From the IMG/VR virus record IMGVR_UViG_3300005613_000297, positions 1 through 30,231 of that record: 30,231 nt of DNA; one strand, given 5' to 3'. Position numbers and translations under genes: made by a program. Positions 3,710 through 29,753 of the stretch are shown here, in pieces. The notes beneath the pieces were generated by a model. That model did no database searches. It saw nothing but the letters and a program-made list of their open reading frames with translations, and was not told the DNA's origin. The stretch's first letter is position 1; each line of letters starts with the position of its first letter. The stretch comes from a virus.

Positions 3710-3721
3710 GAGCGGCCCACA

Positions 3722-4330: not shown

Positions 4331-4392
4331 CCGCCGGTTGACGGCTTCAAATCCTCCGTCTACCGTGGTTATGTTCCCCGCCGTCGCTGGCG

Positions 4393-4429: not shown

Positions 4430-4446
4430 TACTCAGAGGTGCCAAA

Positions 4447-5373
4447 ATGGCTGACGAAATTCTAACTGGATCCGGCGGGGGTGGCGATATCCTCGTCGCG
4501 GAAGTCCAGAGCAAATATGCACAACTTTCACTTGCTGATCGCGCTTCACTGCGTAATCATCCGACGCTCGTAAACCTCGGACCAAACTTGATCGGCTCAG
4601 GTACCGAACAGATTTCTATCTTCGGTCTGGACGGTTCGGATCTGATGACGGCCCGAACGGAAATTCAAGCGATCTCGAACCAGGCTTTCAGCGTGTCATC
4701 CGTGACTTGTACGCCTGCACCGTACAGAATCGCGTATGACTACTCCGACCAAATTGGCGCTCTTGATCCCAGCGGCGTGGTGAATTCGTACCGGCTTGCT
4801 CAATCCATTGTCGGATCTGCCACCATGACCCTTACGAATTTGATCGCACAGGCGATCGACGGCTTCACCGCTGTCGGTACGACCGGGGTCGATTTCACGC
4901 ACGACACATTTCTGGCCGGACAATTCGCGCTTGACCAGGCATCCGTAAACGGTCCCTACCTTTGCGTACTTCACCCCAAGCAATTCACCGATTGGCAGTC
5001 CGATCTTGAAACGCGCGGCGGTGTGACTCAGTGGCGACCAGCTACCGCTGAAATGCAAATGCTCAGAGGCCAAGGCTACAAAGGCATGTACAACAACATC
5101 GACATTTTCGTGTCCAGTAAGGTCCAGCCAGACGGCGGCGGTTCCACTGACTGGTACGGTGGACTGTTCGGCGCTGGAGCGGTGGCCTACAAGGAAATGG
5201 CACTTGGTCCTGCTCCCCGGTCGCAGATCGTCCTGCTCGATGTAGAGGGCGTGATCCGTGTCGCCGAGTCCAGAAACGAACTGTCTGGCGATACTCAGGT
5301 TGTAGGCCACTATTTTGTAGGTGCATGCAACCCTGAAGCGTCACGAGGCCGAACCCTCATTTCGGCGCAATAG
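4447..5373 (+). CDS. Major capsid protein
   Basis: This 308-aa protein is assigned as the main head shell subunit, presumably HK97-fold. Evidence: position after the scaffold, size, a strong Shine-Dalgarno sequence (AGAGGTG), its own structured leader, and a strong terminator straight after the gene, as expected for the most expressed late product. The N-terminal part contains a Gly run (residues 9-13) and a helical arm (about 18-40). The middle (about 112-150) is helical and could be the spine helix. The C-terminal half is beta-rich and ends in an ACNPEASRGRT-like segment. No protease-cleaved delta domain is apparent, in line with a separate scaffold. Confidence 0.82.
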   Translation: MADEILTGSGGGGDILVAEVQSKYAQLSLADRASLRNHPTLVNLGPNLIGSGTEQISIFGLDGSDLMTARTEIQAISNQAFSVSSVTCTPAPYRIAYDYSDQIGALDPSGVVNSYRLAQSIVGSATMTLTNLIAQAIDGFTAVGTTGVDFTHDTFLAGQFALDQASVNGPYLCVLHPKQFTDWQSDLETRGGVTQWRPATAEMQMLRGQGYKGMYNNIDIFVSSKVQPDGGGSTDWYGGLFGAGAVAYKEMALGPAPRSQIVLLDVEGVIRVAESRNELSGDTQVVGHYFVGACNPEASRGRTLISAQ

Positions 5374-5382
5374 TTACCTTTC

Positions 5383-5419
5383 GCCCCGGCCTTTGCCGGG
5401 GCTTCACATTTTGTTTTTT
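5383..5419 (+). terminator. Rho-independent terminator after the capsid gene
   Basis: A perfect 8-bp GC stem, GCCCCGGC (5383-5390) with GCCGGGGC (5395-5402), closes a CTTT loop. It is followed by a T-rich tract that includes TTTTGTTTTTTG. It lies 10 bases after the capsid stop codon. It probably trims the capsid transcript and lowers expression of downstream head and tail genes. Confidence 0.85.
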
Positions 5420-5443
5420 GTAATTCACATCAGGAGCCCACAA

Positions 5444-6097
5444 ATGCCGAAAGAAATCAAGGCACCCGCAAAGACAACTATCAAAGCGCCTTCAAAGGCG
5501 AGAGCCGGAATAAAGCCGACTCCACCACCATCCGTAATGGAGGCGCCATTTAATTTTGCAGCCACTCATTCATTTGTGTATCTGGCGCACCCAACCCGGT
5601 GGGACGTTTACGAAACGTCGGAAGGCCCGGAACTACTACCGCAACTCCGTGCATTCCCCCGAGCGCCGGGCGTCAATGGCGTCGTGTACGTCCGAGGCCA
5701 TGACGATGGAGACGAAACGGCGGCAGTTGCCAACCTATGCCATAAAGACGGGTGGGTAAAAGTCGATCCCAACGTCACCGTTTTGGCGTTCGGTGAATCG
5801 GTGGACGGCTATGTACACCAATATCCAGGCCGAAGCGGACCGATCAATTTACCGGTTTGGACGAGGCTATATCAACTCGGCGACGAGGTCCAACGTCAGT
5901 TTGACGCGGACGGTTTTCACGATTTTCTGCGTTTCGTGCGGGATAATTACCTCGGGCAGCCAACCCCGGAAATCAAGCGATCTAAACATTTACAGCTCCG
6001 CAATATGGCCGCAAAGGGACTCTCAAAGCAGGCTTCCCCCGCCGGCGCTATCGCCGGAGAAATCATGGCGCGCAAAGCTGAGGCCGTCGCTACATGA
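5444..6097 (+). CDS. Unknown head-region protein
   Basis: This 217-aa protein has no function I recognise. The ATG at 5444 is chosen over an upstream in-frame ATG at 5321 because it has AGGAG with good spacing, and the upstream start would place 41 residues over the capsid gene and the terminator. The N-terminus (residues 1-30) is a basic Lys/Ala/Pro-rich tail that could be disordered or contact DNA. The body is mixed alpha/beta, and the C-terminus is an Ala/Lys-rich helix. Encoded right after the major capsid protein, it may be a minor head or head-stabilising protein. It overlaps the next gene by ATGA (6094-6097), so the two are probably translationally coupled. Confidence 0.7.
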   Translation: MPKEIKAPAKTTIKAPSKARAGIKPTPPPSVMEAPFNFAATHSFVYLAHPTRWDVYETSEGPELLPQLRAFPRAPGVNGVVYVRGHDDGDETAAVANLCHKDGWVKVDPNVTVLAFGESVDGYVHQYPGRSGPINLPVWTRLYQLGDEVQRQFDADGFHDFLRFVRDNYLGQPTPEIKRSKHLQLRNMAAKGLSKQASPAGAIAGEIMARKAEAVAT

Positions 6098-6399
6098 GTA
6101 AACCGGGCTGGCAAATGACAGCCGCCGAAAAGGTGGCGCAGCGCCATCGACCAGATCGTGACGGCGAAGCCGAAACGCGGCGGATGCGTACGGCGCACCT
6201 CATAGCTGCTTCACTCGGCGAACCGCAACCGATAACTGGCGAGCTGCCAGGGGTTCGGGACACCCGTAACGATATGGTGAGTCAGGAAATCGCGATGGGT
6301 GCATCGCCCGAGGCTGCCCGGCGACAAGTCGATCGAGTCGTGGCACACTATGAACGGTCGGTGAAAGCCGGCCATGAACCCTACCCAGCAAAGAGGTAA
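6094..6399 (+). CDS. Small unknown head-region protein
   Basis: A 101-aa hydrophilic, Arg/Glu/Ala-rich protein, predicted helical, with no recognisable domain. It begins inside the stop of the preceding gene (ATGA overlap) and ends 3 bases before the next start, so it is part of the same translationally coupled head cluster. The segment around residues 65-90 (SPEAARRQVDRVVAHYERSV) is a likely amphipathic helix. No membrane segment or signal peptide is visible. Position suggests a structural or assembly role, but nothing in the sequence proves it. Confidence 0.65.
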   Translation: MSKPGWQMTAAEKVAQRHRPDRDGEAETRRMRTAHLIAASLGEPQPITGELPGVRDTRNDMVSQEIAMGASPEAARRQVDRVVAHYERSVKAGHEPYPAKR

Positions 6400-6402
6400 A
6401 AA

Positions 6403-6957
6403 ATGTCTGTAGGTACAAACATCTACCAAAAAGTCGGAAAGGCGCTAGCGTCCTTCGGTTTCGTGGTGCGGACTAGTAAAACGAGTGTAGTAGCAAACGA
6501 TCCGACGATCTCCGCCGGCGCTGGCGCCCCAACGGCAACAGAGCCAAACGGATCTCTATTTCTCCGAACAAACGCCGCATCTGCCGGTGAGGCTGTTTAC
6601 GGCCGCCTCGGCGGTGGCTGGGGTCCGCTCGTCGGCGCCAACCTCGACTCCGATCCCGGCGATGCCGGAGCACTGCAAGCGCTGTCAAACGCCTCGGTAT
6701 CGCTAACCTCAGCGGGAGCCGGTGAAACGCGCACCCTGGCTGATCCGGCATTCGTTGGACAAACGCTGTCCCTCATCCACATTGTGGACGGTGGTGATAT
6801 CGCTGTGACGGCTGCGAGCGCGATTAACAAAGCTGGAAACACCGGTATTGCTTTCGCTGACGTCGATGATTTCATCTCGCTTGTCGCGGTCGATGTCGAT
6901 GGCGCCGGTGATCTTGAATGGCGCGTAGTGCAAAACGACGGTTGCGTACTTAGCTAG
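6403..6957 (+). CDS. Probable head decoration or fibre-like structural protein
   Basis: This 184-aa protein has an N-terminal helix (residues 1-20). A segment GAGAPTATEPNGSLFLRT (about 39-56) follows and resembles the Gly/Pro loop plus GSLYLR strand common in phage fibre and decoration proteins. The C-terminal beta-domain (about 105-184) runs through VGQTLSLIHIVDGG, AINKAGNTGIAF and LEWRVVQNDG. That last region resembles the fibre-tip fold also seen at the C-termini of the proteins at 18840 and 20189. A good Shine-Dalgarno sequence (AGAGGT) precedes the ATG. Lying in the head cluster after the capsid gene, it may decorate the capsid or form a short head fibre. Assignment is by pattern only. 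Confidence 0.6.
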   Translation: MSVGTNIYQKVGKALASFGFVVRTSKTSVVANDPTISAGAGAPTATEPNGSLFLRTNAASAGEAVYGRLGGGWGPLVGANLDSDPGDAGALQALSNASVSLTSAGAGETRTLADPAFVGQTLSLIHIVDGGDIAVTAASAINKAGNTGIAFADVDDFISLVAVDVDGAGDLEWRVVQNDGCVLS

Positions 6958-6967
6958 GCGGTTATGA

Positions 6968-7975
6968 ATGTCTTCCCTACTTAGAGCCGGTTTTGAAGTC
7001 AACGACCTTGCAGCCTATGCAACGGCAGGGTGGACTTTCGCAAACTGCACATTGACCGCCACGAACGCCCATCAGGACATGAACGGGCGTGGCGGCTCAC
7101 TGTGCGTGCGCACAGCTAATTTTTCAACGATATACACCCGGACGTTTTCGACCTCCGCGCAATACGTATGCTTCTTCGTGTACTTTGACGCGTCAGTCCC
7201 AAGCACTTCGTCGATTACGGTGTGGGCATACCTGACAGGCTCGTACCAATGCGGTTTCCGGATGCGCGACGACGGATTCGTCGACCTGTTGCGCGGCGCC
7301 GGGACGGTCATGGCGACCAGTGTCGGGACATTTGCCACGGGTACGGGGTACTGGGTTGAGGCGTACATCGACGCCCAAAACACAGGTGAAATGTGGGTAA
7401 AAATGAACGGAACGCTGATGGTGTCTGCGGCGGCTACAGACTTCCAGGATCTTGGCTCACCCTATTTCGACCAACTGCGATTTTACTCAAGCACAGGATA
7501 TTACCGCTATTTCGACGATCTAGCAGTTCGCACCGGCGCGCAAGGCACGATCCCTCTCACCAATGAGTTGTATTGTGTGCCCCAATACGTCGATGGGAAT
7601 TCGGCCGTAGCATTTACGCCTTCTGCTGGTACCAATTACGAATGTGTAGATGAAAATCCATTCTCTTCGGCGGACTATGTGGAGACGGTCACCGCAACGA
7701 CCGAGGACCGATACACACTCCAAAACCTCGCAGTATCGCCGCAATCAATCGACGGCGTAACGTTGTATATCCAAGGCCAGCGTGATGGTGCACTGACGAC
7801 AATCACGCCTCTGGTCGAGCACTCAGCGACAACAGACTACGGAACGGCAACATCCCCAGGTGGGGGTGGTGTGTCCGGAATGATTGTCGAGAATTTTGAC
7901 ACGTGCCCTTCGTCTGGAGTCGCATGGACGGAAGCCGAGGTAAACGCCGCCATAATCGGCGGAAAGGCTGACTGA
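6968..7975 (+). CDS. Structural protein with a lectin-like jelly-roll domain (putative)
   Basis: This 335-aa protein is rich in Thr, Ser, Gly and aromatic residues and strongly beta-stranded. The N-terminal 190 residues resemble concanavalin/LamG-like jelly rolls: an FE/D opening strand, RTFSTSAQYVCFFVYFDAS, GYWVEAYIDAQ, and a closing FDQLRFYSSTGYYRYFDDLAV. Its family in phages often has carbohydrate or particle-surface roles. The C-terminal part (about 200-335) is a second beta-region ending in a short helix. It contains several Cys residues but no catalytic motif. It lies in the head/neck cluster, and its TGA overlaps the next ATG (TGATG at 7973-7977), implying coupled translation. It is probably a virion surface protein; binding to sugars is inference. 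Confidence 0.55.
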   Translation: MSSLLRAGFEVNDLAAYATAGWTFANCTLTATNAHQDMNGRGGSLCVRTANFSTIYTRTFSTSAQYVCFFVYFDASVPSTSSITVWAYLTGSYQCGFRMRDDGFVDLLRGAGTVMATSVGTFATGTGYWVEAYIDAQNTGEMWVKMNGTLMVSAAATDFQDLGSPYFDQLRFYSSTGYYRYFDDLAVRTGAQGTIPLTNELYCVPQYVDGNSAVAFTPSAGTNYECVDENPFSSADYVETVTATTEDRYTLQNLAVSPQSIDGVTLYIQGQRDGALTTITPLVEHSATTDYGTATSPGGGGVSGMIVENFDTCPSSGVAWTEAEVNAAIIGGKAD

Positions 7976-8736
7976 TGGCTGACTATGCGCGGCTGGAAGG
8001 CGTTCTGGCCGAGGTAGCTGTCGAGTCGTCCGAGTCGCGGCTTAGGATAGATGGTATCATGGCGGAGGTAGCTGTCGAGTCGTCCGAGTCGCGGCTTAGG
8101 ATAGATGGTATCATGGCGGAGGTAGCTGTCGAGTCGTCCGAGTCACGGATGAGAATCGAGGCTATCATGGTCGAGGCCGGTCTTTTCGGTCCGCTAACCG
8201 AACCGATAAACGGAGTCCCTTCCATGGCAATCGCAAGAGCACAAATCAATGTAGATATTTCTTCATTCGTTACGGCGGTCGATCCCGGTGACGGCGCGGT
8301 CGGTGGGTCGATTCAAAAATTCAAAGCCTGGCCGGTGGGCACAGCTACGCACCAAGCGGATCTGATGTACTACGCCGGACGCACCCTATCGACTGGCGCC
8401 AACGAAACGCTCGACCTCTACGGGACGCTTGAGGACCCCATCGGTGGCATTCTGAATTTCGCGGAGATCCGCGCAATTTGTATCCTCAACACGTCTACGA
8501 CATCCGGCGAAGATCTGCTAATTGGACCCGCTGCCGCAAATGGGTGGGGCGCTGGCGCCGGTGGTATCGTCAACGACGCGAGCGATCGTATTCGCGTACC
8601 AGCAGATTCTCCATTCGTTTGGATTAACCCCAATGGTGGGGCTGTAACAGCCGGCACTGCGGATCAATTTTACGTCGAGTCAGAAGGCGCGGCAGATATC
8701 ACTTACCGAATTCTAATCATCGGGGTATCTGCATAA
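7975..8736 (+). CDS. Virion protein with triple 18-aa helical repeat and beta C-terminus
   Basis: This 253-aa protein has two parts. Residues 12-65 are three 18-residue repeats of the type AEVAVESSESRLRIDGIM, predicted helical and suited to a coiled coil or trimerisation stalk. From about residue 83 (MAIARAQINVDISS) comes a beta-rich domain with LNFAEIRAICILN, DLLIGPAA and a terminal ITYRILIIGVSA. This pattern recurs in small phage head or tail accessory proteins. The internal ATG at 8223 could in principle express the C-terminal domain alone. The gene is coupled to both neighbours through TGATG and TAATG overlaps. Exact function is unknown; a decoration or neck-fibre role fits the position. 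Confidence 0.6.
   Translation: MADYARLEGVLAEVAVESSESRLRIDGIMAEVAVESSESRLRIDGIMAEVAVESSESRMRIEAIMVEAGLFGPLTEPINGVPSMAIARAQINVDISSFVTAVDPGDGAVGGSIQKFKAWPVGTATHQADLMYYAGRTLSTGANETLDLYGTLEDPIGGILNFAEIRAICILNTSTTSGEDLLIGPAAANGWGAGAGGIVNDASDRIRVPADSPFVWINPNGGAVTAGTADQFYVESEGAADITYRILIIGVSA
8008..8169 (+). repeat. Three 54-bp tandem repeats in coding sequence
   Basis: Units span 8008-8061, 8062-8115 and 8116-8169. Units 1 and 2 differ by a single base at the third position. Unit 3 matches for its first 29 bases and then diverges. The near identity, including silent positions, points to a recent in-frame duplication. Each unit encodes 18 residues, so the helical stalk can lengthen or shorten without a frameshift. 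Confidence 0.95.
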
Positions 8737-9485
8737 TGCCGATCAATCGCACTGAATACGCAGCCGGGTTTGAAATCCCTGATTTGATTCAGCGCGATCG
8801 GGCTGTCGTGCTTACGTGCCCCGTGTACAGAAACGGCGATCTTGTTGCTCCAACGTCCGGAACCGTCACCATTCTCAAGCCTGATAGCACCGAGCTGGTG
8901 GCTTCGACGGCAGTGGTTATATCCGGCGATGTGGCGCAGGTGAGCCTGACGACGTCCCCCTATGCGGCCGAGTCCTACCAAATGGGGTATCGTGCGATCT
9001 GGTCCCTCGTAATGCCTGACGGGAACACCCACGACTTCCGCAACGAGGTCGGCATCGTTCGCAACGCCGTTCATATGCCTGCAACAACGCGGGATCTTTT
9101 GAATCGGCATAGCGATTTAGATAGGCATCTGCGCGGCACCGGAGAGGCCTCTTGGCAGCGATGGATTGACGAATCATGGTACCAGCTTCAACGCTGGATG
9201 ATACGCAAAGGTAACCGACCAAACCTCATTATCCAGTCCACAGAGCTTAAGGATGTGCACGCGGTGTGGTGTCTGATGCTGGTTTTCCGGGACCTGGAGA
9301 CGGACGCCGATCCAGATGGTCGGTACGCAAGGCTTGCAGCGAGATACAAAATGGAGTTGGACGAGCTACAAGAACAGGTGCATTTTCAATACTCTACGAC
9401 TGATGAGCACATTCCAGACCAGAAGAAGAGAACCGGCGAACCAACAACCTTCTTAGCTGTTTCTGGTTATAGGGGCTGGCGTTAA
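8736..9485 (+). CDS. Putative head-tail connector (adaptor) protein
   Basis: This 249-aa protein has two parts. Residues 18-100 look like an Ig-like beta domain (VVLTCPVYRNGDLVAP, TVTILKPDSTELV, YRAIWSLVMPDGNTHDF). Residues 115-225 form a helical bundle (RDLLNRHSDLDRHL, WIDESWYQLQRWMI, ELKDVHAVWCLMLVFRDL, RLAARYKMELDEL). The helical part resembles gp6/gp15-like adaptor proteins that sit under the portal. An N-terminal Ig-type extension is less usual. It lies between the head cluster and the probable tail terminator, as expected for an adaptor. Start and stop are shared with neighbours by TAATG overlaps at 8734-8738 and 9483-9487. Confidence 0.6.
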   Translation: MPINRTEYAAGFEIPDLIQRDRAVVLTCPVYRNGDLVAPTSGTVTILKPDSTELVASTAVVISGDVAQVSLTTSPYAAESYQMGYRAIWSLVMPDGNTHDFRNEVGIVRNAVHMPATTRDLLNRHSDLDRHLRGTGEASWQRWIDESWYQLQRWMIRKGNRPNLIIQSTELKDVHAVWCLMLVFRDLETDADPDGRYARLAARYKMELDELQEQVHFQYSTTDEHIPDQKKRTGEPTTFLAVSGYRGWR

Positions 9486-9997
9486 TGGAGCGGCGCGGGT
9501 ATTTCCCTCATGAAATCCGCCAGCTAATCACATCGCGGATCGAGGCGCTTACTCCGTCCGACGGCTTCACGCCAGGACGATACGAAATAGGATACGCGCA
9601 TTCCGCCAATGATGCGTGGCGTGAGGCGCTTGAACCTCTGGTCCCAGAATGGGAACCATCGACCACCGCACATCTTGCGTTTTTTGTTGACGATCGAGAC
9701 ATTTACGATTCGGCGCAACACCGTTCTGGCCGCGAATGCCCGATGACGGTATCGAATTATGTGATACGCTTCCTATTCGAAATGCGTCCTAGGTACCTAG
9801 TAAATGATTGGGATGGGGCCGGAAAAGCAGCGGTTGATCTGTACCGGTGGCTAGTAGCCACAGACTGGACGGATGCTTGTAACATCCTCAGCACCTCGCG
9901 CCCGATCAACCGCGCCCCAATCGGAAGCGGCGAATGGCTGGCGGTTGAGATACGATTGGATGTAGAATTTCCCCTATCACTCGCTGAAGCACTTTAG
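9485..9997 (+). CDS. Putative tail terminator / tail completion protein
   Basis: This 170-aa protein is mixed alpha/beta: an N-terminal helix (FPHEIRQLITSRIEAL), several central strands (LAFFVDDRDIYD, NYVIRFLFEMRP), a helix (AGKAAVDLYRWLVATDW) and a final strand pair (WLAVEIRLDVEFPLSL). That order matches small tail terminator proteins, which cap the tail tube and join it to the head. It lies immediately before the major tail protein gene, where tail terminators are normally found. No catalytic motif is visible. The ATG overlaps the previous stop, and the stop is 11 bases before the tail-tube gene. Confidence 0.6.
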   Translation: MERRGYFPHEIRQLITSRIEALTPSDGFTPGRYEIGYAHSANDAWREALEPLVPEWEPSTTAHLAFFVDDRDIYDSAQHRSGRECPMTVSNYVIRFLFEMRPRYLVNDWDGAGKAAVDLYRWLVATDWTDACNILSTSRPINRAPIGSGEWLAVEIRLDVEFPLSLAEAL

Positions 9998-10008
9998 GAG
10001 TCAATATC

Positions 10009-10503
10009 ATGGCTGGAGTATTCACCTTAAAACACTGTTCCCTTGTGGGCCAAGACGCGACAGGTACACCGATCGATGTCAACCTCGCGCCCGGTCCCGG
10101 CGATTTTTCCATCAGCGGGCTTGAGCATAATCTTACGGAAGCGCTGCCCGTCTACAATCGTGGAACATATTATGAGGCTGTCGAGGGGTCCGATAAGGGT
10201 GTCGAATTTTCATTGACCGTTTACCATGAGGGCGCGCTCGTCGATGGCGGAACCGACACCGTCATGAATATGGTAATGAAGCAAGGCACCTTTTCAGCCG
10301 GCACCACGACTGACGCCGGCGGCGTCGTGTGGATGGTTGATATCGTTTTTACCGCCACGCGTTCCGGCGTGACGTCAACAATCACCCTGAATAATTGCCG
10401 CGTCATGGTATCGTACACTGAAGACGCTAACGGCAACCAGCTGCAAATTTCAGGCACCGCATACGGTACCGGAACAACTAGCCGGCCCGTCGTCATCGCC
10501 TAA
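10009..10503 (+). CDS. Major tail (tube) protein
   Basis: This 164-aa, beta-rich, Gly/Thr/Val-rich protein fits a tail tube subunit that polymerises around the tape measure. Strands such as FSISGLEHNLTEALPVYNRG, VEFSLTVYHEG, VVWMVDIVFTATR and CRVMVSYTEDANGNQLQISG suggest the tube beta-sandwich. It lies directly before a frameshifted chaperone pair and the tape measure, the diagnostic siphovirus order. A strong Shine-Dalgarno sequence (AGGAGT) precedes the ATG. No C-terminal Ig-like decoration domain is present. No sheath gene lies next to it, which argues against a contractile tail. Confidence 0.8.
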   Translation: MAGVFTLKHCSLVGQDATGTPIDVNLAPGPGDFSISGLEHNLTEALPVYNRGTYYEAVEGSDKGVEFSLTVYHEGALVDGGTDTVMNMVMKQGTFSAGTTTDAGGVVWMVDIVFTATRSGVTSTITLNNCRVMVSYTEDANGNQLQISGTAYGTGTTSRPVVIA

Positions 10504-11690: not shown

Positions 11691-13688
11691 ATGGCGTCAC
11701 AAGACTACTACCTCCGCATTATAGCGGACCTTAAAAAGTATCAGTCAGAGTTTGCGAAAATTCCAGGATACACCGACAAAAAAGCAGCAACGGCTGCGGC
11801 CGCTTTGGAGCGCCGATTAGCGAAAGCGCAAACGGCTTCCGCTGCGCTTGCAAAAAAAGCTGCAAGCGACTCAGCGAAAGCATGGTCCGGTAGCATGTTT
11901 TCGACATTCACCGATCTGAAAAGTGCTTTCGATACGCTCGGGTCAATAGGCGGAAAGGTCGTAGAGCAAATAAATGCGGTGCAGGAATACCGCATTTCTA
12001 TCGACCAGTTATCAACGAGAACTGGGGTAGCAACTGAGGTTCTTGGTGGCCTAAACGTTGCGGCGGAAAATGCCGGCATTTCGTTGGACGAGATCACCGG
12101 TTCGCTTTCAGATTTCCCCAAACGAATCGACGAAATGGCACGCGGTACCGGCGAAGCAAAGGTAGCGTTTGACCGGCTTGGGATTTCTGCTAGAAACACG
12201 GACGGCAGTATCCGGGATTCGAACGAGGTGTTTAAAGAAACGGTTGCTAAGCTACAGGGGATCGGCGACGCCGGGCAGAAAGCGGCCCTTGCGAACATCG
12301 CTTTCGGTGAGGCCGGCGGGAAGCTCATGGCGGTGCTTGGCGACAGGTCGCTAGATGATTTTGTTGAATATTCGAGAAAGTTCGGTATCGACGTTGGGCC
12401 AGAGGCAATAAAAAGATCGAAGGAATGGACGGCCGCAACGGCGGAGCTGAAACGGGTGTTTGAAGGCACCGGCGCAATGATAGTCGACGAGCTAGACTTG
12501 ACCGGAACTATCAGAAATTTCACGCTCGGCTTCGTGTATATGCGCGAGCTTGTATCTGGCTTTTTCGGCGACTGGATGGAGGGCATCAAGGCCACCGCTG
12601 ACGGGATGCGGTCACTCGTAACGCTGGATTTTGCTGCAATGGGACCGGCGTTTGAGCGATATAAAGCCGCGATGGCGGACGCCATAGACCCTAGCCAAGA
12701 GTTTGCTGACGCCAAGAAGGTTGCCGAAACATTTTGGGCGGGGCGCGGGCTGCTCGGTGATGATGCCGGCGACGGCAAAAGCGGGCCGCTGTTCGGCGAT
12801 CCAGACAAGCAAAAGAAGACTGCTATAACGGCTCTTCAAGATGTTTGGTATGAACAAGAAAACAAAATGGCGCAGGCTACGCGAGACTTTCAAAAGGCTC
12901 AACAAAACGTGATAGACCTAGCAAAGCAAGCTGGTATCGCGCTAGATGACGTGCTCGTCACCGATGCGTTACTGGCGCTTGAAGTTGGTTTCAAGAAGAC
13001 GACCGATCAAATAATCCGCGACGATATCGCCCGCATAGGCGGTGCAATTATGGACGTGTTTAAGTCCATTGATCAGCTTACAAGCCAGTTGTTTGAAAAC
13101 TCTACAAACAAGCGAAAAGAAAACATATCTGATTTGGAAGAACAGCTAAAAAGGGCGGAAGAAGCCGGCGATACAATGCGCATGCGTTCCATTGAAAACG
13201 AAATTAAAGCCGAGAAGGATAAACTTCGAAAAGTCGCCGCCGCGCAAAAAGCAATGGCAATAACAAACGCCATTTTGCAAGGTACACTCTCAACAATCGC
13301 CGCACTACAATACGGTCCGGCTTACGCTATAGTTGCTGGCGTAACGGCAGCGGCGGGGATCGCGGCTATAGCCGCAACGCCACCGCCAAAATTTCACCGG
13401 GGCGGAATGATCCAGCCTGACGAGGTAGACATTCGGGCCCAGCGCGGCGAGTTCGTTATGTCTAAACAGGGCGTTGCAGCTTACGGAGAACAGGCGTTAC
13501 GCGATATGAATGCGGGAATGGGTGGCGATCGCCCACTAGTCATTCAGCAGGTGTATGAGCATCGGGTATTGGGTGAGGTTATTCGGGATCATCTGAAGCT
13601 AGATACTCCGCTACGTCGTGCCGTGCGCTCCGACCGCACATACGGTAAAAACCGAACCAACGTAACCAAACATAAAGGCGGCCTGTAA
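11691..13688 (+). CDS. Tape measure protein
   Basis: This 665-aa protein sets tail length and travels through the tube during ejection. It is helical through most of its length, with Ala/Lys-rich coiled-coil regions at about 25-65 and 470-515. Residues 90-220 resemble the conserved tape-measure segment (STRTGVATEVLGGLNVAAENA, DFPKRIDEMARG, LGDRS). A hydrophobic stretch (about 521-563, INITNA-like helices then GPAYAIVAGVTAAAGIAAIA) could insert into membrane. A C-terminal FHRGGMIQPDEVDIRAQRGE module, common at tape-measure ends, follows. At roughly 1.5 Angstrom per residue the tail would be near 100 nm. The stop overlaps the next ATG (TAATG). Confidence 0.9.
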   Translation: MASQDYYLRIIADLKKYQSEFAKIPGYTDKKAATAAAALERRLAKAQTASAALAKKAASDSAKAWSGSMFSTFTDLKSAFDTLGSIGGKVVEQINAVQEYRISIDQLSTRTGVATEVLGGLNVAAENAGISLDEITGSLSDFPKRIDEMARGTGEAKVAFDRLGISARNTDGSIRDSNEVFKETVAKLQGIGDAGQKAALANIAFGEAGGKLMAVLGDRSLDDFVEYSRKFGIDVGPEAIKRSKEWTAATAELKRVFEGTGAMIVDELDLTGTIRNFTLGFVYMRELVSGFFGDWMEGIKATADGMRSLVTLDFAAMGPAFERYKAAMADAIDPSQEFADAKKVAETFWAGRGLLGDDAGDGKSGPLFGDPDKQKKTAITALQDVWYEQENKMAQATRDFQKAQQNVIDLAKQAGIALDDVLVTDALLALEVGFKKTTDQIIRDDIARIGGAIMDVFKSIDQLTSQLFENSTNKRKENISDLEEQLKRAEEAGDTMRMRSIENEIKAEKDKLRKVAAAQKAMAITNAILQGTLSTIAALQYGPAYAIVAGVTAAAGIAAIAATPPPKFHRGGMIQPDEVDIRAQRGEFVMSKQGVAAYGEQALRDMNAGMGGDRPLVIQQVYEHRVLGEVIRDHLKLDTPLRRAVRSDRTYGKNRTNVTKHKGGL

Positions 13689-16600
13689 TGGGAACCGGAA
13701 CCGAGCCAACTCTTTTTCGAGGGCTGTTGCTACACGATCAGAGAATCGATATCGGATCTGTGTGGGCCAGCCAATCCACATACGACACCGCCGGGTCAGT
13801 CGCTGGTATACCCGAGCCGTCAGCAGATACTGAAATGGTGCTTGAGGCTTCCGGGACTCAAACGGATAGCACTGCTATCGAGGTCCTGTCAATTAGCGGG
13901 GGTTTTGCAGAGCCGGGCGGTGGTGGTTTCGCATGGCGATACGAAGGCGATGCCCTATACAGGGGGCGAGATGTTCCGAATGTGATCACCGGCTTTGAGT
14001 TTGTGAGTTGGACAACAACTTCCGATGCCCATATAACGCCGCACGCCGTCACGCTGGCCGACGATACGGTAGTTGCGGTAACGGACGATACGTCAGTGAG
14101 TCGAGAGGTAAACGCGTGGATTAGGGCGACCGATGGGGCTTGGACAGACGTTGGAGCAATTCACACCGAAACGAATACAGATGTTTTGAGCCCTTGCCTC
14201 GTTCTGCTTCCAAGCGGGCGGATCTTGTGTTTTCATTTTGTGCACACATCGACGCGTACGCAAATTGCAATGAGGTACAGCGAAGATGCCGGGGTGACGT
14301 GGCAGCAAGGTTCTGCGTATGTCCTTCCGGACCCAATCTTACGATCGACCTATACGATAAAACGCTTTCGAGCAGCATACAAAGACGGACAGATCCTAAT
14401 GTTGCTCCACCTGCAAAGCGCGACACCACGTGATGTGTTTTTTCAATACGCAAGCGATAACCTGGGAGCATCTTTCGATTTGGTTACTTCGTTCGATGGT
14501 TCTACTATCGGCGAGAGATATGGCTACCCCGATATCGCTGTGGTCGGCGGTAAGTTTGTAGCGGCGGCGCTGGCGTTCGATGGGGCAAACGCTGGCGGCT
14601 GCAATGTGTGGCTATTAACATCAGCATATGAGCCTGTTCTGGCCGCTGACGCTATAACGGACTTGTCCCCAACGGAGGCGTTCACCGAAAGCACGTCGGG
14701 AACGTCTATTGACGTGGCAGATCTGGCGGTATGCGCAGACCAAGACGGCACGGTATACATCTTTACAAGGTATTCAACGGTAGCAACCTCCAATGGTGGA
14801 GGGATCTGTTACCGTTCTGAAAACGGTGGCACATCCTGGGAATCCATGGGTTCCGGCAATCCAGCAGGAACTTCAGATAATCTTGGTATGTGGTGGTATA
14901 ACGAGGACGCTTCGGATCAAATAGTGAACTTTTCGGTCACTCCGCAACGCGGGCGAATCGTTATGGTGCACAACTTTACCGGAACGCCAGATCTGCACGA
15001 TGATTCCTTCTGTGTGACGTACATCGGAGGATACACTCAAATAACAATGCCGAGCCTAGATAACTACGTCCGAGACATTGGACAGGTCAACTTCACCCAC
15101 AACTATCTTCCGTTTGACTTACCCGGTGATATCGACTGGACAAAAACGGCGGTCGGAACAACGTCCGAGTCGCTAACCGGGGGAGCCCTGGTTATAGGTT
15201 GCACTAGTCTCGGCGGGACGCTGTACTACGATCGCAACGTTCCGGGCACAATTGCCGAGGGAGTTATTGCGAAATTTGCGGCGGAAAGTGGCACCGCATT
15301 TCGCTTCTTTGTGCAACTAGCGGATGGGGTCAGTGACTATATGGTTGAGGTTCGCGTCACCGGCACAGATCTACTTCTAAGGGACGAACACGCTGGAACC
15401 ACGATCAACACGGTTGCCTATGACGGCAGCGCGGTTGAGGTTATCGTTGCGGTAGCAAACGATGATGTTGTTGCCGCGTGGAGGTATTTAAACACATCTG
15501 AGGATCGCCAGTTTGTAGAGCTTGGTAGTAGCGGAGTTCTGGCCGATGCTGGGGCTGGGCCGATCAACAACAATATATCCTTTGGCGTGGACGGATCGAC
15601 AGGTGAGGCGACGGTTTATCAGGTGCATGATGCTAGTGACGAGTATACCGGGTTACAGCTGGCGGGTGGCTTCACGAACCCAGATGATCTTTATGCTCGA
15701 ACCTTTGGCACAAATGCTGTTTCGATCACCGACGGTCTAAAAATCCGCGCAACGGACGGTCCTACATTTGAGGGGGACGAATGGACGATATCTTCGCGAA
15801 GCGACTACGCGCTAACCAACACCCTCCCAAACGTGCAGCCGTCACCGCGTAAACCTTGGCGCTCGGCTACCACGACGGCCGATATGATGATTGCGTTTGA
15901 TTTAAACGACGAATCGGCCACACCGGCAAATTCGTGGCTAGGCGACGGGTGGATCGCTGTGTACCTGCAAGGTATAAACTTCCGTGATTTCGTAATTCAA
16001 ACCTCAGATAACACCCCTACATGGGGCGACGTCGCATCCGTTGATGCCTCGGTTGCCGTCAGTTACCAGCGCTTCGGAAACACCCTTCAGCCAGATACGG
16101 CAGCAACGAGCGGTATTTATTTACAGCGAAACGAACTATCCGGCGGATGGTTCGAGTTTCAAGGCGGACAATTACGCAAGATTACCGGGAACACCGAGGG
16201 AGCTTGGGTGAATTCCGGAGTTTCGTCAGGTGTTCCTGCCGGAAAATATCCAACGATTTTTCTGGATGGTGTCACGGGCGCGGAGGGAACTGGCACGGCC
16301 AGCGGTCGGATTTGGTTTCCGTCTGTTTGCGCTGTGATACCAGTGCCTTTCAGTGAGGCGATACGGCAGGGCATACGCTTAAAGCTCCGGCCTAGCGGCA
16401 CATCTCAGGCGCCTGCGGATGGATACTACGAAATAGGTCAATGCGTGATCGGCACCGTCGCGGCTTTCGGATGGGATTACGAGGAAAGTAGAGGGAGAAC
16501 CTACACACCGAATGTCGAGGTCACCACGCTGCGGGACGGCTCAAGGTTCTCTCGCGTGTTGGGCCCGGGTAGAAAACGTGTTGAATTTTCGTGGCCGAAT

Positions 16601-16921
16601 GGTGTGCCGCAACGCCGTATATCTGGATCGTCTACATCCGATGATTTTTTGGAGCAGGGCGACGGGGTACCTTTCGCAGCGAAGCACGACATTCCGGAAA
16701 TGCTGCAAGGCATATTTGAGGAGCTAGACGGGTCACACACGCCCGTTGTGTACCTGCCATATATCGACGGTACATCGGAGAACACACTCACCTACCAGCG
16801 GGTTCGTGGCGCAGTATATGGCCGTATAGTATCCACGCTACAAATAGACACGGTCAACGGCGACGAAGGGATCGACGAGTTTTTGCGCGTCGGAAACATA
16901 GTGATTGAGGAAGAGCTATGA
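13688..16921 (+). CDS. Large tail protein with BNR/sialidase-like propeller and distal-tail-like C-terminus
   Basis: This 1077-aa protein follows the tape measure, the usual place of distal tail or tail-tip proteins. Residues 95-480 look like a beta-propeller with Asp-box signatures: SEDAGVTW near 198, a weaker SDNLGASF near 256 and SENGGTSW near 376. These are typical of BNR repeats in sialidases and related sugar-binding proteins. The middle (about 480-700) is jelly-roll-like. The C-terminus (about 920-1077, YTPNVEVTTLRDGSRFSRVL to IVIEEEL) resembles a beta-sandwich found in distal tail proteins. I cannot confirm a catalytic sialidase set (Arg triad, Tyr/Glu), so glycan binding is as likely as cleavage. 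It overlaps the next gene by ATGA. Confidence 0.65.
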   Translation: MGTGTEPTLFRGLLLHDQRIDIGSVWASQSTYDTAGSVAGIPEPSADTEMVLEASGTQTDSTAIEVLSISGGFAEPGGGGFAWRYEGDALYRGRDVPNVITGFEFVSWTTTSDAHITPHAVTLADDTVVAVTDDTSVSREVNAWIRATDGAWTDVGAIHTETNTDVLSPCLVLLPSGRILCFHFVHTSTRTQIAMRYSEDAGVTWQQGSAYVLPDPILRSTYTIKRFRAAYKDGQILMLLHLQSATPRDVFFQYASDNLGASFDLVTSFDGSTIGERYGYPDIAVVGGKFVAAALAFDGANAGGCNVWLLTSAYEPVLAADAITDLSPTEAFTESTSGTSIDVADLAVCADQDGTVYIFTRYSTVATSNGGGICYRSENGGTSWESMGSGNPAGTSDNLGMWWYNEDASDQIVNFSVTPQRGRIVMVHNFTGTPDLHDDSFCVTYIGGYTQITMPSLDNYVRDIGQVNFTHNYLPFDLPGDIDWTKTAVGTTSESLTGGALVIGCTSLGGTLYYDRNVPGTIAEGVIAKFAAESGTAFRFFVQLADGVSDYMVEVRVTGTDLLLRDEHAGTTINTVAYDGSAVEVIVAVANDDVVAAWRYLNTSEDRQFVELGSSGVLADAGAGPINNNISFGVDGSTGEATVYQVHDASDEYTGLQLAGGFTNPDDLYARTFGTNAVSITDGLKIRATDGPTFEGDEWTISSRSDYALTNTLPNVQPSPRKPWRSATTTADMMIAFDLNDESATPANSWLGDGWIAVYLQGINFRDFVIQTSDNTPTWGDVASVDASVAVSYQRFGNTLQPDTAATSGIYLQRNELSGGWFEFQGGQLRKITGNTEGAWVNSGVSSGVPAGKYPTIFLDGVTGAEGTGTASGRIWFPSVCAVIPVPFSEAIRQGIRLKLRPSGTSQAPADGYYEIGQCVIGTVAAFGWDYEESRGRTYTPNVEVTTLRDGSRFSRVLGPGRKRVEFSWPNGVPQRRISGSSTSDDFLEQGDGVPFAAKHDIPEMLQGIFEELDGSHTPVVYLPYIDGTSENTLTYQRVRGAVYGRIVSTLQIDTVNGDEGIDEFLRVGNIVIEEEL

Positions 16922-25453: not shown

Positions 25454-25541
25454 CTTATCCACTCCACACCTCCTGGTAGCGAAACGTACCGCGTCGGGTT
25501 AATGTGTGCAAGTTCGCTACACAAAAAAGGAAATAAACACC
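25454..25541 (-). promoter_or_regulatory. Divergent control region with inverted repeat and probable leftward promoter
   Basis: This 88-base gap separates the leftward operon from the rightward Cro/XRE gene. An exact 8-bp inverted repeat, GTAGCGAA (25476-25483) and TTCGCTAC (25513-25520), spans the middle with a 29-base spacer and may be an operator pair. On the minus strand TTGCAC (25511-25506), a 17-base spacer and TACGTT (25488-25483) form a weak promoter candidate lying within the repeat pair. A repressor on these half-sites would then cover both ends of that promoter. No convincing plus-strand promoter was found. Confidence 0.5.
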
Positions 25542-25787
25542 ATGGACTTGACCGAAACCACCACGTTAGGCCAGTTTTTGCGCGAAGCCAGAAAACGAAC
25601 CGGCGCCAAAGCCGATGATTTTCGCGCCATCGGCGTATCGCGATCAGCGGTATACACCTATGAGCGTGACGAGTGGCGACCACGTGCGCCGCGTTTTGCC
25701 GACGTGCTTGATTATCTAGGCGTGGTCGATGGCGTCGAGGTACTGCACGGCTGGAGCTTGCTTGGCGCCAGGCAGTCCGATATATAG
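25542..25787 (+). CDS. Cro/CI-type (XRE family) transcription regulator
   Basis: This 81-aa protein has an XRE helix-turn-helix: LGQFLREARKRTGAKADDFRAI leads into GVSRSAVYTYERDEWRP, with the recognition helix at about residues 29-40, then FADVLDYLGV. The length fits a Cro-like repressor with no cleavable C-terminal domain. It is divergent from the recombination operon and faces a spaced inverted repeat. It is therefore a good candidate to repress its own gene and the leftward promoter. The ATG at 25542 with AAGGA upstream is preferred over a GTG at 25506, which would lie inside the operator region. A terminator follows. Confidence 0.82.
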   Translation: MDLTETTTLGQFLREARKRTGAKADDFRAIGVSRSAVYTYERDEWRPRAPRFADVLDYLGVVDGVEVLHGWSLLGARQSDI

Positions 25788-26205: not shown

Positions 26206-27180
26206 ATGAGCGACAAAAAGAAACCGGCGTTTGATATCGCGGTTTTTACCAATATTTACGACCGTGCCCCCAAGGCGCACCGTTGCACACATGACGCGCT
26301 AGAAAAGGCGCTAACAACCTTTGATATCGTCGGAGACGCTCCAAAGGACCGCATTAAATGCTGGTCACCGACGCGGTATAAATGGGTGGATACGCCTGAA
26401 AGCGACCTTGAATATATAAAATCAGGTGTCACCGGCAAAGGCAGGCCGATGTGGCGCAGCCAAGAAAAGCCGATGGAGCGGCGAGGCTACCATTTAAACC
26501 GTGGTAGGTTCGGTGTTTTGAGCGTTTCATGCTTCGTTTTAGACTACGATGACGGAACACCGCTAGACGCTGCACGCGCCCCCTGGATGCAATACAACCA
26601 TTGTTGGCATTCATCCTACTCTCATACGAACGAGGTTCCGAAATTCAGGCTAATCGTTTTTTTGTCAGAACCGGTCGATAAAGACCTTTGGCCGAGGGTT
26701 TGGCGGTGGGGTTTCGAACGGGCGGCGGGCTCTCCAGATGAGGCGTGCAAGGACCCTTCGCGTATTTATTTGGTGCCTACACTGAAATCGGAGAACCAAC
26801 CGCGTCTGTGCGGGTCGCATGAAACAGGTGAGTTTCTGGCGGTGGATTGGGATTCGTTGCCGGATGAACGAGGAAACAAGTCGGTTTTCATCCGTGAGGT
26901 TCCAAGACCGGAAGTCAGGGGACCGATAGGCGAGGTGATACGCGAGGTTCGAAGCCGGTTAAAACATGACCCGTTGGAGAGGAAGCGCGTCGCGGTCATT
27001 CTTGGCGCAACCCAAAACACAGATAGAGCGTGGGGAATGCGTTGTCCAGCGTGCGGTCGTGCGAGCGTTTGGTTTTTGGTGAATCCCGGTGCGCAAAAGG
27101 GGGCGGAATGCAATCATAAGAATTCTTGTGGTTGGTACGGATTTTTAGACCAACTTTTGGATGGGTCATACAATGGATAA
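26206..27180 (+). CDS. AEP-like (archaeo-eukaryotic type) primase with zinc ribbon
   Basis: This 324-aa protein shows the outline of an archaeo-eukaryotic primase domain as found in phage and plasmid replication proteins. Its features are FVLDYDDG (110-117, acidic pair for metals), WHSSYSHT (134-141, the S/H motif) and KFRLIVFLSEPV (146-157). A linker with basic helices (about 235-270) leads to a zinc ribbon with C280, C283, C302 and C308, plus H304. Such proteins make primers at the origin. The next gene is a VapE-type helicase that overlaps it by 8 bases, a pairing that is known in mobile elements. AGGTAGG precedes the ATG. Motif assignment is by eye. Confidence 0.75.
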   Translation: MSDKKKPAFDIAVFTNIYDRAPKAHRCTHDALEKALTTFDIVGDAPKDRIKCWSPTRYKWVDTPESDLEYIKSGVTGKGRPMWRSQEKPMERRGYHLNRGRFGVLSVSCFVLDYDDGTPLDAARAPWMQYNHCWHSSYSHTNEVPKFRLIVFLSEPVDKDLWPRVWRWGFERAAGSPDEACKDPSRIYLVPTLKSENQPRLCGSHETGEFLAVDWDSLPDERGNKSVFIREVPRPEVRGPIGEVIREVRSRLKHDPLERKRVAVILGATQNTDRAWGMRCPACGRASVWFLVNPGAQKGAECNHKNSCGWYGFLDQLLDGSYNG

Positions 27181-28423
27181 TAAAATTTACGACATCGAAA
27201 AATCCCGTTGGCTCGTCCACTTTGCCGCAATCACCGAAACGGATCCCGTGGTGTCCGAGGGTATGCACCTTTTTGAGGACCGAAAGGGGAATATCATGCA
27301 TAGGAAGAACCTTTTCAACGTCAATCACGTCCTGACGCGTGACCAGAAATACCAGGGCAAAATTCAGTACGACGAGTTTTCCGACACGGTCCTCGTCTAC
27401 GGTCAGCCGGTCATGGATACGATGTGCACACAGATAGCGATCGACCTCTCGCATCGCTACCCTGGCCTAGACGTGCCTTCGTCGCTCGTATATGAGGCGG
27501 TGATCCGCGTGGCGAGGGAACACGCCATACACCCGGTGCGCGACTACCTAGACGGGCTCGAATGGGACGGCGTGGAGCGAGTAAGCCGTTTGTTCCTGCA
27601 TTACTTTTCGGCGGTACACCAAAACCAAAACGAAGCGAGGCTAATAGAGGACATTGCAACATGCTTTTTAGTGTCGTGCGTCGCTCGCGTCATGAAACCA
27701 GGTTGCAAGGTCGATACAACGCCGATCGTTTACGGCGGCCAGGGGATGGGCAAATCAACCGCTTTTCGCGTTTTGGCCGGTGAAAAGTGGTTTTCTGACA
27801 CGCCGCTCCCGCTCGGGCATAAAGATTCGTACCAGCAGCTCCCGGGCGTGTGGATTTACGAGCTGGCGGAGCTTGATTCTTTCAGAAATGCCGAGTCAAC
27901 GCAGATAAAGGCCATGCTGTCGAGTCAGGAGGACAAATACAGGCCATCCTACGGCCGCGTTCGGGTGAATGTTCCGCGGCAAACTGTGTTTGTCGGAACG
28001 ACAAATGCCGAGGAGTTTCTTAGCGACGAAACAGGCTCCCGCCGATTCTGGCCCATTGAAGCCGGCAAGGTGCAGATGGAGCATCTATACCGCGACCGCG
28101 ATCAACTGTGGGCGGAAGCCGTGCACCTATACCAGAGCGGCCGGGAGTGGTGGCTCGACTACGAGCAGGCGCGAGATTTAGCCGCCATGAGCGACCGGTT
28201 CCGGCAGGTGGACCCGTGGGAGGACGAAATACTGCAGTGGCTGCAGAGCTACGCGCTCGTCATCACCACGCGCGCCATACTCACTGACGCCCTCGGGGTA
28301 CCGAAAGATCGGGTCCGCCGTAGTGACGAAATCCGCGTCGCGAAGATCATGCGCTCGATTGGGTACAGCAAAACACGCGAACGGGCGAACGGCACAAGAA
28401 TGCAGGCGTGGACCAAAGCGTAG
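27173..28423 (+). CDS. VapE-family replicative helicase (superfamily 3-like)
   Basis: This protein (416 aa from ATG 27173) belongs to the virulence-associated E family of phage and plasmid helicases. It has YLDGLEWDGVERV (about 125-137), typical before the ATPase core. Walker A is GGQGMGKST (188-196), Walker B-like is WIYELAELD (227-235) and a sensor/Arg-finger region TTNAEEFL...GSRRFW lies at about 276-293. The C-terminal 80 residues form a winged-helix-like domain (TRAILTDALGVPKDRVRRS, AKIMRSIGY). It would unwind DNA at the origin with the primase. ATG 27173 overlaps the primase stop; 27161 is an alternative that adds four residues. The last codons carry the first copy of the TGGWCCA repeat. 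Confidence 0.88.
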   Translation: MDNKIYDIEKSRWLVHFAAITETDPVVSEGMHLFEDRKGNIMHRKNLFNVNHVLTRDQKYQGKIQYDEFSDTVLVYGQPVMDTMCTQIAIDLSHRYPGLDVPSSLVYEAVIRVAREHAIHPVRDYLDGLEWDGVERVSRLFLHYFSAVHQNQNEARLIEDIATCFLVSCVARVMKPGCKVDTTPIVYGGQGMGKSTAFRVLAGEKWFSDTPLPLGHKDSYQQLPGVWIYELAELDSFRNAESTQIKAMLSSQEDKYRPSYGRVRVNVPRQTVFVGTTNAEEFLSDETGSRRFWPIEAGKVQMEHLYRDRDQLWAEAVHLYQSGREWWLDYEQARDLAAMSDRFRQVDPWEDEILQWLQSYALVITTRAILTDALGVPKDRVRRSDEIRVAKIMRSIGYSKTRERANGTRMQAWTKA

Positions 28424-28472
28424 TGGACCACATGGACCACTAGTGGACCACTACAAATGGTCCACCATATTA

Positions 28473-28502
28473 AGCCTCGTTCCTCTGGTTCGGGGCTTTT
28501 TC
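28473..28502 (+). terminator. Rho-independent terminator after the helicase gene
   Basis: AGCCTCG (28473-28479) pairs with CGGGGCT (28491-28497), including one G-U pair, around an 11-base loop. TTTTT follows at 28497-28501. It should end the primase-helicase transcript inside the repeat region and separate it from the downstream promoter. Confidence 0.75.
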
Positions 28503-28570
28503 CGTTGGACCACATGTTTTCTCCCTATGACTCATTACTTCCCATACGTTACTAACTGCCATATGGCCAG

Positions 28571-28600
28571 TTTTACAACTTTTAAAGTTTTTTCTAAAAA
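28571..28600. other. A+T-rich core between repeat arms (candidate unwinding element)
   Basis: Twenty-six of 30 bases are A or T, in a genome segment of otherwise near-balanced or G+C-leaning composition. It lies between the two repeat clusters and immediately before the tandem heptamers at 28605 and 28613. Origins often place such an easily melted segment next to initiator binding sites. Confidence 0.5.
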
Positions 28601-28736
28601 GAAGTGGTCCAGTGGTCCAATTTCAATTTAGCAACGAATAGCCGTCGTTTTGGTGGACCACTAGTCCAAAAAAGAAGTGGTCCACTAGTGGTCCAAGTGG
28701 TCCAAACCGCCGAAGAAGTGGACCACAAAAAGCGTA

Positions 28737-28765
28737 TTGACACGACGTGTGAATGTTGGTACAAG
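28737..28765 (+). promoter_or_regulatory. Sigma-70-like promoter for the winged-helix gene
   Basis: A perfect -35 box TTGACA (28737-28742), a 17-base spacer and a -10 box TACAAG (28760-28765, four of six matches) predict a start near 28772, about 14 bases before the ATG. The last TGGWCCA copy (28719-28725) lies 11 bases before the -35 box, so a protein bound there could block or help RNA polymerase. Confidence 0.75.
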
Positions 28766-28785
28766 AAACATGCACCGGAGACGAC

Positions 28786-29148
28786 ATGCGACAGATCGAC
28801 AAAATTAAAGCACGCCTAACGGAGGCCCGTCGACCGCTAACGACTCGCGAAATAGCGGCGGAAACCAACTTGACGCCAGGCCAGGTAAGCAAGGTCATGC
28901 ATGCATATGCGGACTCGCATGACATTGTGCGGTCCAGTACGTCTACCAGAGAGAGCGCGTGGTCAATGGCTAGCGTTTTGCCCCCTCCTGAGGCACACGA
29001 GAACCCGGAGGACCTGGACACCGTCCGGGAGTGGCGTGCCTCTCAGGCGGCAGAAAACACGAAGCCGTCACGACTTACGACTCGGCTCGTCACGGCCGTA
29101 AAGCTCATGGGTATAGCCTTTTCCGTCCTGAAAGGAGACATAAAATGA
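28786..29148 (+). CDS. Winged-helix DNA-binding protein beside the repeat array
   Basis: This 120-aa protein has an N-terminal winged helix (about residues 1-48): IDKIKARLTEARRPLTTREI, AAETNLTPGQVSKVMHAYAD and HDIVRSS as the wing. The rest is a polar linker and a C-terminal amphipathic segment (RLTTRLVTAVKLMGIAFSVL). ATG 28786 with GGAG five bases upstream is chosen, since an ATG at 28753 would lie within the promoter. It is the first gene after the palindromic array and so the prime local candidate to bind it, either as autoregulator or origin-binding protein. That link is inference. Its stop overlaps the methyltransferase start (ATGA). Confidence 0.72.
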   Translation: MRQIDKIKARLTEARRPLTTREIAAETNLTPGQVSKVMHAYADSHDIVRSSTSTRESAWSMASVLPPPEAHENPEDLDTVREWRASQAAENTKPSRLTTRLVTAVKLMGIAFSVLKGDIK

Positions 29149-29753
29149 ATAATAGAGCAGTAGCGAAGCCGACACACGAGCGAAAGAAAAACGAAGCCTA
29201 CTACACCGACGAACGCGTAGCGTTGGCGTGTGTCAGGTACATGGCCGAATACATACGCCCTGACCGCATACTTGAGCCGAGCGTCGGAGGCGGTGCATTC
29301 GTTCGAGCCTGCCGCGAGGTCTGGCCTGACGCGCATATCACTGGGGTGGACGTTGACCCGGGTGCGAGCGGTCTAGCAGAGTGCGACGAGGCTTTTGTCG
29401 GGAGCTTTACGGAGTTTAAATCGCCAAAACCATTCAATCTCGTGATAGGTAACCCTCCTTTTTCGCTCGCAGCGAAGCACATTCATCATGCGATCGGGAC
29501 GCTCCACGAGTGGCCGCGTCTTGCGGTGGTCGCCATGCTGCTCCCGTCGTCATTTTGCGGAGGCGCGTCTACGCGGGGATGGTTCCACGAGGCATATGGG
29601 GCACCGCTACGCCGATGCACGATTCACCCGCGACCATCGTTTACTGGAGGTGGAACCGCTGCAATGGAGTACGAGCTGATGGTCTGGAGCAATGCCGAAC
29701 ATAACAAGCGTGGAAACACATATATCAATTGGAAAAAGGAGCAGCAACAATGA
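29145..29753 (+). CDS. DNA adenine (N6) methyltransferase
   Basis: This 202-aa protein has a SAM-binding motif LEPSVGGGAFV (43-53), an acidic strand end VDVDPG (68-73) and the catalytic NPPF (103-106). It is therefore an amino-methyltransferase, most likely acting on adenine. YYTDERVALA near the start resembles the motif X region. At 202 aa it is short and lacks an obvious large target-recognition domain. AAAGGAG lies seven bases before ATG 29145, so longer upstream starts are rejected. No restriction partner is nearby, so this is an orphan enzyme. It may protect phage DNA from host nucleases or mark replicated DNA. Target sequence cannot be told. Confidence 0.85.
   Translation: MNNRAVAKPTHERKKNEAYYTDERVALACVRYMAEYIRPDRILEPSVGGGAFVRACREVWPDAHITGVDVDPGASGLAECDEAFVGSFTEFKSPKPFNLVIGNPPFSLAAKHIHHAIGTLHEWPRLAVVAMLLPSSFCGGASTRGWFHEAYGAPLRRCTIHPRPSFTGGGTAAMEYELMVWSNAEHNKRGNTYINWKKEQQQ

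Follow-up and report, generated by a model that had tools for sequence, protein, structure and literature searches.

What is the dense cluster of short repeats behind a helicase gene of this virus: a pair of arms that are bridged or base-paired, a set of operators, or an origin of replication? The window, that is, the whole 30,231-base stretch analysed here, is a viral contig that may be a fragment of a larger genome. An earlier note on this DNA had singled out two mirror-image 28-base arms. As it reported, positions 28424-28451 (TGGACCACATGGACCACTAGTGGACCAC) match the reverse complement of 28677-28704 at 27 of 28 positions, with one mismatch; a repeat search extends the match to 29 nt (28/29, 97%). 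The arms are composed of the 8-mer TGGACCAC and its reverse form GTGGTCCA, and the heptamers within them start at 28424, 28433 and 28444 on the left and at 28678, 28689 and 28698 on the right. The mirrored steps of 9 and 11, then 11 and 9, and the inter-arm distance of 225 bp had thus been read correctly. The palindrome CCACTAGTGG, said to lie in each arm, is found at 28682-28691 on the right as described, but its left copy is at 28437-28446, one base away from the 28438-28447 given before.

The arms do not stand as a unit. Dinucleotide shuffles of the 30,231-base record contain 3.1 ± 1.8 copies of TGGWCCA (maximum 8), whereas the record itself has 15, of which 13 fall within 317 bp (28409-28725), a clustering that is not due to chance. 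Seven of these heptamers (28409, 28458, 28506, 28605, 28613, 28654 and 28719) were absent from the earlier note, which likewise missed the A+T-rich core and the adjoining VapE helicase gene (Table 1). The mirrored arms are just the outer part of a larger array of about 13 sites, to which inner sites and one reversed site per half also belong. Outside the iterons the arms have four spacer bases in common, with 3 of 4 matching; because the spacers contribute only these four bases, most of the 27/28 match is the iteron itself, and the informative part of the arms is their mirrored spacing. The best mirror axis of the array passes through the midpoint of the A+T-rich core, at about 28559, and unites four mirrored pairs (28424/28688, 28433/28677, 28458/28654 and 28506/28604), whereas the axis implied by the arms lies five bases to the right and yields three, all of outer sites. 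A+T content is 68% in 28514-28603 compared with 42% in vapE, and G+C content is 34% in 28520-28599. The hairpin within the left half-array folds as RNA at -14.1 kcal/mol (z -3.6).

Table 1 Features of the array and of the genes in front of it
Feature	Position	Strand	Evidence or remark
Probable primase-like partner, 324 aa, directly 5' of vapE	26206..27180	+	phrog_9765 DNA primase, E=2e-10 (weak)
VapE-type (PriRep1-like) helicase gene, 420 aa	27161..28423	+	PF05272, E=1.5e-76; phrog_1313 DNA helicase, E=6.4e-102
Outermost left heptamer, TGGACCA	28409..28415	+	In last vapE codons (Trp-Thr-Lys)
Left outer triple, TGGACCAC at 28424, 28433, 28444	28424..28451	+	Left arm of the earlier note
Reversed site of left half, ATGGTCCAC	28458..28464	-	Near-palindromic, orientation weak
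Terminator-like vapE hairpin, AAGCCTCG...CGGGGCTT, then T run	28472..28499	+	Terminator scan, RNA fold
Left inner site, TGGACCAC	28506..28513	+	
Central A+T-rich gap, candidate melting site	28514..28603		68% A+T
Right inner pair, GTGGTCCA at 28604 and 28612	28604..28619	-	
Reversed site of right half, TGGACCAC	28654..28661	+	
Right outer triple, GTGGTCCA at 28677, 28688, 28697	28677..28704	-	Right arm of the earlier note
Extra flanking site, TGGACCAC	28719..28726	+	

The protein encoded in front of the array matches PDB 7pds by phmmer (E=1.6e-42) and by profile (E=5.6e-90). Its AlphaFold2 model, based on 41 aligned loci (mean pLDDT 91.8), has all six chains of 7pds, 'PriRep1 with dsDNA', as best Foldseek match (TM 0.74-0.78), followed by NrS-1, the SaPI5 primase-helicase and poxvirus D5/E5. 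By sequence and model alike, VapE is a homologue of the hexamer solved on double-stranded DNA. Its C-terminus, H352-363/H370-377/H387-399/E402-409/E412-419 by DSSP of the model, is predicted with high confidence to form a winged helix at residues about 352-419. The primase-like protein has no Pfam match; genes for an SSB, an ERF recombinase and a 3'-5' exonuclease (Pfam) lie nearby. Because terminase, tape-measure and endolysin genes are present, the record represents a tailed phage, not a satellite. Its structural module is very divergent, as the ORFs in portal, capsid and tail positions (1934-10500) have no PHROG match at 1e-3. The tail region also contains a 1,077-aa ORF (13688-16921) with weak BNR/sialidase-like repeats (PF13088, E 2.5e-5, under the curated cut-off), and two genes 3' of the array is a DNA methyltransferase-like ORF (29031-29753; phrog_799, E 6.5e-28) whose start codon is uncertain. 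Several other identities of the array were considered and dropped: a packaging site; a CRISPR array, for which the motif is too short and occurs in both orientations; and an attachment site, as no integrase was found among the window proteins scanned and the arrays in relatives are not tied to one. Rfam gave no RNA family.

Taken together with the comparisons below, these features lead us to put at roughly 85% the probability that 28409-28726 serves this phage as its replication origin, in the form of a SaPI/PICI-type iteron array on which two VapE hexamers would load. In PICI origins an AT-rich region lies between two sets of iterons 3' of rep, and plasmids are maintained by means of pri-rep-ori (PMC6092414). 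Like the SaPI/PICI rep-ori of staphylococcal pathogenicity islands and of PICIs from Gram-negative hosts, with its two sets of short iterons around an AT-rich stretch immediately 3' of an initiator-helicase gene, the array here lies directly behind such a gene, with its first site in the last vapE codons and its end at 28726, and its sites (28409-28513 and 28604-28726) surround the 68% A+T gap. In both, the motif varies between elements, and the helicase has the same fold (PriRep1, 7pds). The difference lies in the element itself: a PICI is a satellite without virion genes of its own, a description that does not fit this virion-forming tailed phage. The papers that we searched yielded no description of a mirrored site-by-site layout, although older primary papers on SaPI origins, which lay outside the search, may contain one.

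Other known replication systems are alike in part. In phage P4 the primase is fused and of the Toprim type, and the repeats are otherwise arranged. The P4 alpha protein with ori1/crr is alike in being a primase-helicase whose winged-helix origin-binding domain reads short repeats (PMC4234260). SCCmec Cch2, which forms hexamers and dodecamers, is a self-loading helicase whose C-terminal domain binds repeats directly 3' of its own gene (PMC7581432), but it belongs to another helicase subfamily, and its iterons number only three, within a 23-bp direct repeat. In pRN1 and BIP-1 the origin is just 3' of a gene for a primase, SF3 helicase and winged helix (PMC4234260), but no iterons are recognised there, and recognition is attributed to structure instead of repeated sites.

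To place the array in a wider context, we collected vapE loci from alignment-based scans of IMG/VR and bacterial genomes, together with annotated phages and plasmids. The 282 sequences, including the window, gave 48 representatives on clustering at 70% identity. Searching IMG/VR with only the window protein, with confirmation by tblastn, returned nothing, and alignments were needed. Each locus was scanned in sliding 400-bp segments for the 8-mer with the most non-overlapping copies on either strand at <=1 mismatch; this replaced an initial score, the best exact 7-mer within 600 bp 3' of the gene, which was too strict. The top repeat segment of the locus lies at -100 to +500 of the vapE stop in 38 of the 48 representatives. 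In 32 of the 48, the array segment beats every segment outside -400 to +1000, with 8.8% expected from the share of such segments among those scanned (binomial p about 1e-22); the remaining 16 have no strictly outstanding array behind the gene. Pseudomonas arrays, whose motif is degenerate, lie 300-650 bp downstream, past a small gene. Neither the arm sequences, for which IMG/VR holds no exact match, nor the replication genes of the record, for which blastn found no match among phages, led to a close relative of this array.

The motif itself changes by lineage while its position next to vapE stays: it is TGGACCAC in this record, GGTCACC in Marinobacter PS3, TGTCCYAC in Pseudomonas, CCTAACC in Synechococcus S-LBS1, TTGCCAAC in locus L116, GGCCACACC in the Myxococcota locus L087 and TGTTGCATC in Staphylococcus LH1. 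This constancy bears on the idea that the heptamers are operators for a transcription factor controlling flanking genes, such as the HTH proteins encoded at 25506-25787 or 28753-29148. The sites are near-palindromic, repeated and between two genes, with an HTH-like ORF 3' of them (weak Sigma70_r3 match), but we found no promoter-like site in 28200-28900. Across loci, moreover, the array accompanies vapE and not any given regulator, and it occurs on plasmids with few other genes, which makes an operator array very improbable.

Among these plasmids is pGO128 (4,340 bp, five annotated genes), in which the array follows VapE, its only evident replication protein; further arrays are found on Yersinia pYe4449-2, Komagataeibacter pKNA06 and the streptococcal satellite Javan746. 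Such natural replicons, which combine VapE with an array, support an origin function without proving it. Four plasmids of 4.3-26 kb (L193, which is pGO128, and L194, L195 and L196) have VapE as sole evident replication protein plus a recombinase-family gene, and this class is typed as non-mobilizable by PLSDB.

Individual loci showed further variations. In L006 (Synechococcus phage S-LBS1, about 5199-5237) and L196 (about 4971-5005), what looks like an intrinsic terminator of vapE consists of two iterons that face each other and a T run behind them, so that terminator and origin sites have bases in common; the window differs, in that a separate hairpin takes the terminator role. The S-LBS1 record also closes with about 115 bp of its origin region repeated (5210-5330 and 5467-5581), which is either an assembly overlap at the record end or a true duplication. 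Proteobacterial cores are often not A+T-rich and consist of alternating purine-pyrimidine (CG)n/(CA)n of up to 35 bp, which is Z-DNA-prone (L116, about 5380-5414; also L010, L025, L218, L088, L004 and L058). In 17 of 48 representatives the origin region holds the longest alternating purine-pyrimidine run of the locus, with 10.5% expected (p 4e-6).

We then asked how the sites are arranged. Position-weight refinement placed sites in 33 arrays, and 32 were retained after L155 was dropped as unconvincing. The common layout has outer sites in the same orientation, one reversed site about 20 bp inward and inner sites 8-9 bp apart, and across a central gap of usually 40-125 bp the second half-array repeats the first in inverted form. 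In L116 (14- 23- 46+ 79- 88- 97- and 153+ 162+ 171+ 204- 227+ 236+), all 12 sites are mirrored to the base, each pair summing to 250. We scored mirror symmetry as the number of opposite-strand site pairs on one axis (±1 bp), summed over the 32 arrays. The 101 pairs observed compare with 64.6 ± 2.9 (maximum 74 in 2,000) when gaps and strands are shuffled and with 68.0 ± 3.3 (maximum 78 in 1,000) when gap-and-turn steps are shuffled jointly. Mirrored site placement is thus a real, family-wide property. Individually, 10 of the 32 arrays reach significance under the stricter, joint-step null; for the window array alone, p is 0.011 under the gap and strand null and 0.027 under the stricter one. The number of sites per half has a mode of 6 on the left (18 of 32 arrays) and of 6 on the right (median 5), a count that depends on the threshold of the site caller.

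These results support in part what the earlier note had made of the arms. Its own check, whether relatives drop one of the arms or the spacing, speaks across the family for two mirrored halves, but the sequence itself is not conserved. Its proposal that the sites lie on the same face of the helix does not hold as a rule, as the commonest step between same-strand neighbours in relatives, 9 bp (65 of 179), rotates successive sites by about -50 degrees. An oligomer bridging the two 28-bp arms and looping out the 225 bp between them is the least probable of the explanations that we weighed. Two mirrored arms do exist, and head-to-head hexamers would in effect join the halves, but identical sites lie inside the supposed loop (28458, 28506, 28605, 28613 and 28654), and the inner sites are the best-organised ones in relatives. 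The sites do look like those of an oligomeric protein; bridging as an end in itself is unsupported.

The arms might also pair as a cruciform or a single-stranded hairpin whose shape is read by the helicase, as proposed for pRN1 and BIP-1. pRN1 requires its 3' stem-loop, one has been proposed for BIP-1 (PMC4234260), and the single strand of the array folds at -64.6 kcal/mol compared with -37.7 in shuffles (z -5.9). Inverted copies of one motif, however, yield hairpins automatically, and a hairpin does not need same-strand repeats at 9-bp steps. On the mirror axes of 17 arrays, iteron positions are 58% complementary but spacers 32%, close to the 26% expected from composition, and the window spacers are 25% complementary on the axis of the earlier note. 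Arm-to-arm base pairing is therefore not a conserved feature, and complementary arms that include non-iteron positions, as in a pRN1-type origin, were not found. Because site positions are kept and spacer pairing hardly is, protein geometry is favoured over a pRN1-like stem-loop, which we judge improbable, if somewhat less so than operators or looping.

The repeat can also be followed without protein information. Scanning IMG/VR with two tandem copies of TGGACCAC gave 120 loci; a recognisable vapE was present in 6 of the 35 loci with at least 6 heptamers per 400 bp, compared with 2 of the 53 with fewer than 4. The array begins just past the vapE stop, at 3 bp (L302, L309 and L377), 19 bp (L352, L382 and L396) or 20 bp (L363 and L394). 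Ten genes 5' of arrays comprised two VapE, six DUF5906 (helicase-like), one Toprim/AAA and one Prim-Pol; one repeat is thus in use behind several replication-helicase families. TGGWCCA arrays lie 5-142 bp behind DUF5906 (PF19263) helicase-like genes in L312, L343, L373, L390, L402 and L348.

How would VapE use such an array as an origin? By analogy with SaPI Rep, we infer binding, loading of a double hexamer, melting and origin activity. The C-terminal winged helix of VapE would read the iterons directly 3' of its own gene, and each half-array, with VapE copies bound to its iterons, would seed one helicase hexamer on double-stranded DNA. The rings, opposed to each other, would then melt the A+T-rich core between the halves and depart in opposite directions, while the upstream primase and host enzymes would prime synthesis. 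In SaPI Rep, recognition is by the C-terminal part (PMC6092414, PMC7581432). In our loci, motif distance correlates weakly with sequence distance in VapE 386-420 (Mantel r 0.21, p 0.004) and, with the helicase core removed, with that in VapE 355-420 (partial Mantel p 0.023), but not with the helicase core given the C-terminus (Mantel p 0.22). This co-variation, although weak, points in the same direction as that known for SaPI Rep.

More speculative is the idea of one iteron per subunit and six per half. In its broadest form, VapE helicases of phages, satellites and plasmids would share one origin grammar: a mirror-symmetric set of about 12 iterons, six per half, around a core that is A+T-rich or of Z-DNA-prone alternating purine-pyrimidine. 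Each half would have an outer pair or triple, a reversed site about 20 bp inside and an inner pair or triple at 9-bp steps, providing one site per hexamer subunit, so that the DNA would template head-to-head double-hexamer loading. We offer this generalization tentatively, as one that is possible but less likely than not.

The array is real, functional-looking and, as judged from sequence, of a known kind. What is new is that this kind extends to phages as well as plasmids, that the mirrored layout stays constant while the motif changes and, possibly, that a six-per-half rule holds. The finding contradicts the claim that such an origin organisation is unique to PICIs. It also bears on how VapE is described: the VapE domain of Marinobacter phage PS3 has been called 'a typical AMG', auxiliary and pathogenicity-related (PMC8424206), and this phage (L003) has a clear mirrored array directly behind its VapE gene. 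VapE, still annotated as virulence-associated or auxiliary in phage papers, would together with its origin form a replication initiator module across phages, satellites and small plasmids. From the mirrored layout follows a geometric model, open to test in compact systems, of how a self-loading helicase builds its two rings, to be compared with the double hexamers of SV40 T antigen and MCM, and the layout provides a simple rule to locate origins in many uncultivated phage genomes.
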